DNA of 33,185 bases from Synechococcales cyanobacterium bin2.concoct.b11b12b14.033 (GTDB lineage: Bacteria > Cyanobacteriota > Vampirovibrionia > Caenarcaniphilales > Caenarcanaceae), in NCBI GenBank assembly GCA_013298875.1, contig JAAFJH010000016.1:1-33185 (forward strand). The letters run 5' to 3'. Positions 21,171 to 24,890 of the stretch are shown in pieces. The notes under the pieces are model-generated. The model ran no database searches and was not told the DNA's origin. It worked only from the letters and a program-made list of their open reading frames with translations. A program made the position numbers and the translations under genes. The first letter of the stretch is position 1. Each line of letters begins with the position of its first letter.

Positions 21171-21986
21171 CTATTTACTTTCCCGAACAAAGCACTGATG
21201 GATTCCGTCAATGAACTCATCGATATTAGCATAACGGTTTTTCACTAATCCTAAAAAGGAAGATTTAGTTTTTGCAGTGGCTTTTTTAATTAGTTCAGCT
21301 GTTCTATTACTAATATTAGGATTTTCTTTTTTTGGATCAGCTCCAGGATCTGGTTGATCTTTTAAGGTTAAACATTTATAAAGGGTAGCTCCCAAGCTAT
21401 ATACGTCGCAGCTTGCATCTAAAATGCCATTTACCTGTTCTGGAGCAGAATAATTTTCACGCAAACCAACTGCATCAAAACCAGCTCGGGCAATTCCAAA
21501 GTCAATCAAAACTAATTCGCCATTTGGCATAATTACTATATTGTCGGGAGCAATATCAGCGTGGAAAATAGGAAGAGGTTTTTTATTATGCAAAAAACGT
21601 AAAATATGGGCAAGTTTCAGTCCCCAGTTCAAAACTTTGGCTTCTTCGACTGGTTTATTCATTTTACGCAAATAATCTTTCATATTTTCGCCAGCAATAT
21701 AATTCATAATTACAAAAAAGACTTCATTTTCCCAGAAAAAATCAAGTACTTGAACAATATTTGTATGAAATAAATTACTAAATAATTGATAATCTTTTTC
21801 GATTCCTTGCAGATCCGCTGGTCCTAAATACATTTGCTTCATGACACAAATTTGATTATTATTATATGAATCTTGAACTAAATAAATATAACCTTCTCCA
21901 CCCCGTGCCAAAAGCCTAATGATGCGGTAACGTTCATTAACAAGATGAAAATTGTCTAAAAGAAGGCTTTCATTTGATTTTTGCAT
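21171..21986 (-). CDS. Protein serine/threonine kinase (Hanks-type, no transmembrane segment evident)
   Basis: LARGGEGYIYLV glycine loop, VMKQ lysine, HADIAPDNI catalytic loop, DFG, YSAPEQ. Confidence 0.9.
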   Translation of the reverse strand: MQKSNESLLLDNFHLVNERYRIIRLLARGGEGYIYLVQDSYNNNQICVMKQMYLGPADLQGIEKDYQLFSNLFHTNIVQVLDFFWENEVFFVIMNYIAGENMKDYLRKMNKPVEEAKVLNWGLKLAHILRFLHNKKPLPIFHADIAPDNIVIMPNGELVLIDFGIARAGFDAVGLRENYSAPEQVNGILDASCDVYSLGATLYKCLTLKDQPDPGADPKKENPNISNRTAELIKKATAKTKSSFLGLVKNRYANIDEFIDGIHQCFVRESK

Positions 21987-22147
21987 CTTTAATCTTTAAT
22001 TCATAATCAGTCTTAAGCTATGCAATTTATTTACCCGAAAATCAAAAAACTTTAAAATAACTAGACTAAATAGTTTAAAGCTAGCAATTTTAAGAAGTTT
22101 TGCTTTATGCTAATAGCAAATTTTGCATAATACAAATTAAATTTAAA

Positions 22148-24172
22148 ATGAACTTTAATCGCGACGATTCTCAGTCTTCTTATTCGGGTGGTGGCTATCG
22201 AGGTAATAGTCCTCGAAGCAATAGTGGTGGTTTTAACCGAGACCGAGACTTTCGAGGAAATAGTAGCAATAGAGACAATTACCGTGATCAAAGGCCTGAA
22301 AGATCAGATCGTGGAGATTATTCAGGGCAAAATAATACTGGGCGTTATGGTAACAATAATAATAACTACTCCGAACGAAATAACAATGCAGGCTCCACTT
22401 CCTATAGTAATCATGGTGGTAAAAACAATTTAAGCCTTAATTCCAAGCCATCATTACAAAAGCCACCTGAATTATTAAATGGTCAATTACGTTTATTACC
22501 AATTGGTGGGCAATGTGAAGCGGGGCGTAATGCTTGGTATTTTGAACAAGACTCCGAGATCATTCTGATTGATGCTGGCTTAGGTTTTATGCCTCATGGT
22601 TTTAAAGGTGGTGCTGATTGTACTTTGCCTAATTTAACTTATTTGGAAGAAAATAAAGACCGTATAAAAGCTTTATTAATCAGTAATTCGCATGAAGAAT
22701 ATGCTGGTAATTTAATTAATTTTATACAAACCCTGGATTTGAAAGAAGTTTATTTGCCACAAATTCTCGCTAAAGTTTGCAAAAAAGAATTGGCTCTCTT
22801 TCCGGATTTAAAAGTTAATATAATTGAGCCAAATAAAATTTATAAAATTGGGAAAAGCTTTGAAATTAATCCTTTTACACTGACCTTTATCGGAGCGGAT
22901 TCATTTTCATTTTTAATTACTACTCCTACGCACCGTACATTTTATACTGGGCCTTTCAAAATAGACCATATGCCTTCAATACGCAAGGGGCAAACGGATA
23001 TACAAAGTATTGCTAATTTAGTAACCGAAAAAGGCGTTGATATTTTAATTTCTAATTCTACCAATGTGGAGAGTATGGGATATACCGGCTCTGAATCATC
23101 GGTGAATAAAAAACTTATTGAAATATTTGAATCCGCCCCTAGCAGAGTTATTACTTTATTGAATGCTTGTGCTACGCATAGATTAGCTTCTTTATTACAA
23201 AGTGCTATTAAAGCTAAACGCAAAGTTTGTTTGCTAAATGAAACCTTACAAACTTGGTATAAAGCAGCTGTTGAGTGCGAATACTTTAACTTCCCGAAAG
23301 AACTTTTTATTGAGACCAAAGATTTAGCTAAAACTAATAATAAAGATATTTTGATTTTGATTGGTACTGAAGAAAATAGCTTATTAAAACCTTTTATTGA
23401 TTTATCTTATAAAAAACATCCCGAAATTTCTTTGATTGAAGGCGATAGTATTATACTTTCGGGTAATCCGCCTTTAGGTACTTCGCGTTTAATTGCTAAT
23501 TCCGTCGACCAATTATTTTTGCAAGGCGTACATGTCATTGGCGGCCGGGAAGCGGGAGTGCATGTGCAAAGTTATGCGGCCCAGGAAGAATTGAAATTTA
23601 TGTATAATTTAACGCGTCCTAAATATTGTGTACCAGCTCATGGAGAGTCTCGGCAATTAGTTTTACATTCAGAGCTTTTAGCCCACTGCGGAGTAGATAC
23701 TCGTAATATTATTATTGTTGATAATGGTAGTATTGTGGATTTTGATTCTGCACAAAATAAAGTTGAAATTACGGGCAAAGTGGCGGCTCAAGCGGTATTT
23801 TTTAATAGAGTAAAAGATAGTAGTTTAAATACTCAATCTATTGAAGAAAGGCGTAGTTTGAGCGAAGATGGAGTTATGACTATTGTTTTGGTAATTAATA
23901 GTTTAGATAAAAAATTAATAGCTGAGCCATTTATTAATATGTTTGGTAATTCTTTTAATACTGATACAGACTGGCCAAGAGTCAAAGACTTGATTTTGAG
24001 TGATGTAAAACAAATGGTAAATAAAGCTTTATCGCAAGGCCAAACAGACTTTGTAGTTTTACGTCGTTTTGCACACGATATTATTAGCAGACGTATTCGT
24101 GAAAAATACGGAATGTCGATGCCAGTTTTATCAATTGTTATACAGGAAGTTCAGGCGGTAGTTTCAGTTTAA
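22148..24172 (+). CDS. RNase J-like protein, probably catalytically degenerate, with low-complexity N-terminus
   Basis: Colinear with RNase J (LLPIGGQCEAGRNAWYFE, STNVESMGYTGSE, RLIANSVDQLFLQGVHVIGG, QEELKFMYNLTRPKYCVPAHGESRQL, C-terminal domain), but MBL ligands are substituted. The track start is 22100; ATG at 22148 (MNFNRDDSQSS) is more plausible. Confidence 0.88.
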   Translation: MNFNRDDSQSSYSGGGYRGNSPRSNSGGFNRDRDFRGNSSNRDNYRDQRPERSDRGDYSGQNNTGRYGNNNNNYSERNNNAGSTSYSNHGGKNNLSLNSKPSLQKPPELLNGQLRLLPIGGQCEAGRNAWYFEQDSEIILIDAGLGFMPHGFKGGADCTLPNLTYLEENKDRIKALLISNSHEEYAGNLINFIQTLDLKEVYLPQILAKVCKKELALFPDLKVNIIEPNKIYKIGKSFEINPFTLTFIGADSFSFLITTPTHRTFYTGPFKIDHMPSIRKGQTDIQSIANLVTEKGVDILISNSTNVESMGYTGSESSVNKKLIEIFESAPSRVITLLNACATHRLASLLQSAIKAKRKVCLLNETLQTWYKAAVECEYFNFPKELFIETKDLAKTNNKDILILIGTEENSLLKPFIDLSYKKHPEISLIEGDSIILSGNPPLGTSRLIANSVDQLFLQGVHVIGGREAGVHVQSYAAQEELKFMYNLTRPKYCVPAHGESRQLVLHSELLAHCGVDTRNIIIVDNGSIVDFDSAQNKVEITGKVAAQAVFFNRVKDSSLNTQSIEERRSLSEDGVMTIVLVINSLDKKLIAEPFINMFGNSFNTDTDWPRVKDLILSDVKQMVNKALSQGQTDFVVLRRFAHDIISRRIREKYGMSMPVLSIVIQEVQAVVSV

Positions 24173-24182
24173 TTAAAATTAA

Positions 24183-24890
24183 TTATTTAGTTTGTAATTT
24201 TAAAAGTGCTTGCTGGGAAGCGATTTGGCTGGCTTCCTTTTTAGAACTTCCTTTGCCTATTCCCATTAATTGATCTTGCAAATAAACTTCAATTTCAAAA
24301 ATAGGTTTATGAGGCGGTCCGCTAATCGAAGCAACTTTATATTCTGGCAAGCCCCATTGTTTACTTTGGCTTAACTCTTGTAAGGCAGCTCGGTAATTAT
24401 CTTTTAAATCCGAGGCATCAGCTTCTTCAATAAGCTCAGTATATAAATTTAAAATCAGTTGGCGAGCTATTTCAAAACCATAGACCAAATAACAGGCTCC
24501 AAATAAAGATTCCATAATATCTGACAAAACTGATTCTTTAGGAACTCGGCTTCCTGTACGTACAAAAGGTTTAATATTAAGTTCATGCGCAATTTGTAAT
24601 AAGCTTTTATCACTCAATAAATAAGCACTTAATTTGGTTAAATTTCCCGAATTATAAGTTTTAAATTTGTGAAATAAATGCTCATTAATTGAGGTTTTTA
24701 AAATAGAATCTCCCAAAAATTCTAATCTATCATATTGATCATTCGTTTCATCAAAAGAAGTATTTTCCGGCAAATCTAATAAAAAGGATTTATGCGTTAA
24801 AGCTTGCCAAAATAATTTAAGTGAATTACTGTCTTGAGTCGGTTTTAAATTCAGAATAGTAAATAAAGAGTCTAAGCTTGGCTTTTGCAT
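24183..24890 (-). CDS. rnc: Ribonuclease III
   Basis: FWQALTHKSF, YDRLEFLGDSIL, DIMESLFGACYL, C-terminal dsRBD (DNYRAALQELSQ...GKGSSKKEASQIASQQAL). Confidence 0.95.
   Translation of the reverse strand: MQKPSLDSLFTILNLKPTQDSNSLKLFWQALTHKSFLLDLPENTSFDETNDQYDRLEFLGDSILKTSINEHLFHKFKTYNSGNLTKLSAYLLSDKSLLQIAHELNIKPFVRTGSRVPKESVLSDIMESLFGACYLVYGFEIARQLILNLYTELIEEADASDLKDNYRAALQELSQSKQWGLPEYKVASISGPPHKPIFEIEVYLQDQLMGIGKGSSKKEASQIASQQALLKLQTK

Follow-up and report, generated by a model that had tools for sequence, protein, structure and literature searches.

The gene at nucleotides 22148–24172 of the window (the whole stretch of 33,185 nucleotides analysed here) encodes a degenerate paralogue of RNase J, called pseudo-RNase J below, which has lost most metal ligands of the RNase J active site, has kept the fold, and co-occurs with an intact RNase J. 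With a probability of roughly two in three, it is a catalytically dead, non-catalytic partner of that intact RNase J, which is encoded elsewhere in the genome. Most likely, it would hetero-oligomerise with the active RNase J via its conserved C-terminal domain and the adjoining metallo-beta-lactamase (MBL) part, and would set assembly, substrate access or the recruitment of other RNA-decay factors, the cutting being done by the active partner. Inactive nuclease paralogues are of a known kind; what appears to be new is this clade, how much it has lost and how tightly it is paired with an intact RNase J. In the library searched, no paper was found that connects RNase J to Melainabacteria or to Vampirovibrionia, and ribonuclease J is mentioned in none of the papers listed by a broader search.

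Gene, Domains, and Fold

The open reading frame starts at an ATG and encodes 674 aa on the + strand; upstream, the frame is open to a TTG at 22100. The protein was mapped onto B. subtilis RNase J1, the numbering of which is used here for ligand and substrate positions. The features of the gene are as follows.

22148..24172, + strand: pseudo-RNase J, the degenerate paralogue, 674 aa (Pfam RNase_J_b_CASP and RNase_J_C; TIGR00649; Foldseek RNase J1/J2)
22148..22456, + strand: N-terminal low-complexity tail, residues 1–103, N/S/G/R-rich (pLDDT < 50; composition)
22685..22702, + strand: motif 2, HxHxDH changed to N180-S-H182-E-E184-Y185 (alignment)
22886..22888, + strand: position of ligand H142, here F247 (alignment)
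22952..22954, + strand: position of the bridging ligand D164, here P269 (alignment)
23138..23527, + strand: beta-CASP region as delimited here, residues 331–460 (Pfam PF22505; paired conservation)
23561..23575, + strand: HxSxH substrate site, H472 kept, Q474 and Y476 substituted (alignment)
23639..23641, + strand: ligand H390, retained as H498 (alignment)
23825..24154, + strand: RNase J C-terminal domain as delimited here, residues 560–669 (PF17770; paired conservation)

The beta-CASP (PF22505) and C-terminal (PF17770) domains pass the Pfam cut-off; RMMBL and MBL are narrowly sub-threshold (PF07521, 21.5 vs. 21.6; PF00753, 19.7 vs. 22.7). On TIGR00649 the protein scores 303.6 bits, under the curated 400-bit cut-off. 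Its architecture is that of RNase J, with MBL, beta-CASP and RNase J C-terminal domains, and the solved structures nearest to it are RNase J1 and J2. In a Foldseek search with an AlphaFold model built from 28 family members (mean pLDDT 76), the top matches were RNase J1/J2, the first being the J2-J1 integrative model 9a5v, and the TM-score with RNase J2 reached up to 0.92 by target length. The preliminary description, made from the letters of this DNA alone, had held that the RNase J framework is kept and the frame open, which speaks against a decaying pseudogene; the structure prediction that it proposed agrees, as does a dN/dS of 0.07 (see below).

Residues 1–103 are predicted to be disordered. 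This N-terminal tail measures 65–112 aa in members of the window's family (f1) and is short in most members of other families. Speculatively, this tail could give f1 members extra contacts with RNA or with proteins.

Metal Ligands and Substrate Residues

RNase J1 has two metal sites, with D78, H79, D164, and H390 as ligands of metal 1, and H74, H76, H142, and D164 as ligands of metal 2 (PMC7864078). The corresponding residues of the window protein are N180 (for H74), H182 (H76), E184 (D78), Y185 (H79), F247 (H142), P269 (D164) and H498 (H390). Five of the seven ligands are substituted (H74N, D78E, H79Y, H142F, D164P), bridging D164 among them, and H76 and H390 are kept; metal site 2 retains one ligand out of four, and the complete two-metal set is absent. 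At the substrate site H364 is kept as H472, S366 is replaced by Q474 and H368 by Y476. The preliminary description had read the four motifs as SNSHEEY, GADSFSF, TGPFKID and QSYAAQEE, all correctly, and the alignment to B. subtilis RNase J1 that it suggested gives the five substitutions; its wording that nearly all ligands are replaced was slightly strong, since H76 and H390 (the latter unmentioned there) remain.

Retained H390, found in the motif PAHGE of the window protein, is not a conserved residue: it is H, H, H, Q, and N across the five genomes of f1, the Q and the N belonging to two further genera of this family. H74, H142, and D164 are absent from all degenerate sequences that cover these positions, which fits their loss in a common ancestor. 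All seven ligands are present in 35/35 intact paralogues, in four reference RNases J and in 20/20 RNases J of the phylum's other classes. A genome of the same genus (G001), assembled separately, has a 90% identical copy with the same substitutions; this, and the intact ligands of paralogues and references, rules out sequencing error or chance. Close relatives with intact motifs, named in the preliminary description as a sign of sequencing error, were accordingly not what this genome showed.

The alignments strongly support that the window protein is catalytically dead, weak metal binding being not impossible as H182, E184, and H498 remain. In the degenerate copies of f2 (Obscuribacterales-type), H76, E78 and H79 are kept and position 142 is acidic or an amide (D/N), which may leave room for a metal; hence the case for catalytic death is strongest for f1, f6 and f7. 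Among degenerate RNases J, divergence is greatest in L066 and L067 of f7, with approximately 24% identity to the window protein; L067 has none of the seven ligands and L066 has only H79.

Intact Paralogue and Distribution

A second RNase J is encoded in the window's genome (locus G000:C24). It has all seven ligands, scores 607.5 bits on TIGR00649 (cut-off 400) and is approximately 35% identical to the window protein, so that the active RNase J which the preliminary description thought perhaps to be encoded elsewhere has a ready candidate. The two genes are not adjacent. The intact gene adjoins dapA. In the class, dapA neighbours the intact copy at 33 of 35 loci and the degenerate copy at none of the loci compared; in the phylum's other classes it neighbours at least 15 of 20 single-copy RNases J. 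By its position, then, the intact gene is the orthologue of these RNases J, and its degenerate paralogue is derived. Neighbourhoods of the degenerate gene share nothing that is common to different families.

The distribution of both copies was followed in a sample of 290 genomes of the class. As judged from related records, the class is Melainabacteria/Vampirovibrionia, non-photosynthetic relatives of cyanobacteria; most of these records are Melainabacteria (Caenarcaniphilales, Caenarcanales, Obscuribacterales), and a few stand under other phylum names. Both copies are present in 68 genomes, the intact one only in six (54–88% complete), the degenerate one only in five, and neither in 211. Fisher's test for co-occurrence gives p ~1e-52, a value that overstates independence as the genomes are related, and co-occurrence tracks large clades, so that the effective independent events are few. 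In a set of 60 relatives, the J-bearing families f1, f2, f4, f6, and f7 have as a rule one intact and one degenerate copy. A wider sample of the phylum gave 138 genomes with a match: there is a single match in each of the 132 that belong to other classes, and there are two in each of the six that belong to this class. Pseudo-RNase J is an ancient clade-wide paralogue and not a local oddity.

RNase E was found in 57 of the 60 relatives and in 47/47 high-quality genomes, J-bearing ones included. RNase Y above the cut-off is limited to f5, which is without RNase J, and to one f4 genome (G042). By family, the ribonuclease sets are RNase E and RNase Y without RNase J in f5; RNase E, RNase J, and pseudo-RNase J without RNase Y in f1, f2, f4, f6, and f7 (except G042); and RNase E with neither RNase J nor RNase Y in f3, f8, and f9.

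Selection and Domain Constraint

Pseudo-RNase J is under strong purifying selection. Between the window's genome and the same-genus genome, dN/dS is 0.070 for the degenerate copy (0.03–0.11 by domain) and 0.050 for the intact copy, and values across degenerate pairs range from 0.04 to 0.10; a comparison of this kind had been proposed at the outset. Constraint is shifted between domains. Within-family identity, compared in pairs from the same genomes, is lower in the degenerate than in the intact copy by 0.18 in MBL-N, 0.27 in beta-CASP and 0.13 in MBL-C, and higher in the C-terminal domain by 0.055 (95% interval 0.012 to 0.099). Beta-CASP is the least constrained domain of the degenerate copy relative to the intact paralogue. 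This gain in the C-terminal domain and loss in beta-CASP argues that the role of pseudo-RNase J may be more one of assembly than of holding RNA within the cleft. The preliminary idea of a retained, non-catalytic RNA-binding or scaffold subunit is favoured in its first part by dN/dS, fold, and class-wide retention, whereas the constraint pattern would favour C-terminal assembly over RNA binding in the old cleft.

Origin of the Duplication and Alternative Explanations

In the tree, a single branch with support 100 splits intact from degenerate copies. The degenerate group is again single (support 100) when ligand columns are left out and RNases J of other classes and references are added. Grouping the degenerate and intact copies of the class as one clade, as a duplication inside the class would have it, is not the best tree but is not rejected by the AU test (p = 0.126), and long branches blur the root of the duplication. 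Firmicutes J1 groups with S. epidermidis J2 (support 99), apart from the degenerate group. This placement, and the single match per genome in the phylum's other classes, make it quite improbable that pseudo-RNase J is a true J2 orthologue, going back by vertical descent or transfer to the duplication that produced Firmicutes RNase J2, even if a joint clade with S. epidermidis J2 is not rejected by the AU test (p = 0.167) and motif 2, D164, and H390 are altered in J2 too. The S. epidermidis row of the alignment was taken from PDB 8yyi, an E166A mutant, so that the A in this row at position 164 is not the wild-type residue. A diverged active enzyme, working with one metal or with alternative ligands, is improbable as well. 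S. epidermidis RNase J2 has such a site (H76, H78, H80, H144, and E166 in its own numbering) and keeps activity with one Mn2+ (PMC7864078), and in the window protein H182, E184, and H498 remain, with four potential ligands kept in f2. Among the five J2 metal positions (equivalents of H74, H76, D78, H142, and D164), however, the window protein has lost three, has E for D78 and keeps only H76 unchanged, whereas J2 keeps one site and measurable activity; H74, H142, and D164 are gone from all covered members, and H390 varies to Q and N inside f1. Judged from these residues, pseudo-RNase J is further degenerated than Firmicutes RNase J2.

A decaying pseudogene is scarcely credible. Catalytic residues are lost, and the catalytic domains evolve faster than in the intact copy, but full-length open frames are found in five families, degenerate pairs have dN/dS of 0.04 to 0.10 and the degenerate group occurs in all five J-bearing families; decay, old or recent, is refuted by the dN/dS of 0.07 and by class-wide retention. 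The protein might also be a stand-alone RNA-binding or regulatory protein built on the RNase J fold (a 5'-end competitor, decoy, or sensor) which forms no complex with active RNase J. The RNA-binding residues H364, S366, and H368 survive in most f2 and f6 members, and the tail of f1 members contains arginines. This is unlikely, as two of the three substrate residues are gone in the window protein, beta-CASP, which forms the RNA cleft with MBL, is the least constrained domain and the C-terminal domain relatively the most, and co-occurrence with the intact enzyme is left unexplained. The reading as a dead partner of intact RNase J is the one compared with known systems below.

Comparison with Known Nuclease Pairs

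Firmicutes RNase J2 (B. subtilis RnjB; S. epidermidis, PDB 6k6w) is, like pseudo-RNase J, a paralogue that stands beside an intact RNase J (J1) in its genome, and has altered ligands and low or different activity. J2 forms a hetero-complex with J1 and has a C-terminal interaction domain, whereas pairing is proposed here from sequence; unlike Firmicutes, the hosts of pseudo-RNase J have RNase E and are without RNase Y. The role of the partly degenerate J2 is unclear. Since pseudo-RNase J is not expected to be catalytic, it would be a cleaner system than J2 in which to study the contribution of an inactive subunit.

In eukaryotic RNA 3'-end processing, pairs of an active and an inactive MBL/beta-CASP nuclease have a central place. 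CPSF73 and CPSF100 are a pair of active nuclease and pseudonuclease (PMC10688271). In INTS9, a pseudoenzyme of the MBL/beta-CASP type, NYHC stands in place of HxHxDH, and C-terminal domains join INTS9 to its active partner INTS11 (PMC7980224). As in INTS9 and CPSF100, the ligands of pseudo-RNase J are lost, the fold is kept and an active-looking paralogue is present, and NYHC is close in kind to the N-S-H-E-E-Y of the window protein. INTS9 and CPSF100 differ in that they serve eukaryotic 3'-end processing and have the TBP-like C-terminal domains CTD1/CTD2. The likeness is best taken as analogy and not as common descent of the inactive subunit. Among the nearest working precedents, INTS9 would be more exact than RNase J2, in which the loss is only partial.

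The balance is about even for a wider proposal, in which J-bearing Melainabacteria would run RNase J as an obligate enzyme/pseudo-enzyme hetero-complex, the dead subunit controlling the active one. The dead subunit would have arisen in or before the common ancestor of the J-bearing families, and the complex would be a separately evolved counterpart of CPSF73/CPSF100 and INTS11/INTS9. A class-wide bacterial RNase J that is much more degenerate than J2 and stays with its active copy would mean that this nuclease family has yielded pseudonuclease partners repeatedly.

Canonical cyanobacterial RNase J (slr0551, all3678) and the intact paralogue share domain order and fold with pseudo-RNase J. They differ from it in having all seven ligands, and RNase J is single-copy in cyanobacteria (PMC10989914).

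Neighbouring Genes in the Window

An RNase III-like gene (24183–24890, - strand) is convergent with pseudo-RNase J. It was considered as a conserved operon partner and rejected, as it does not lie beside pseudo-RNase J in the same-genus genome or at any other locus compared. On the other side, a short stand-alone gene of the Ser/Thr protein kinase type (271 aa; 21171–21986, - strand) is divergent from pseudo-RNase J.
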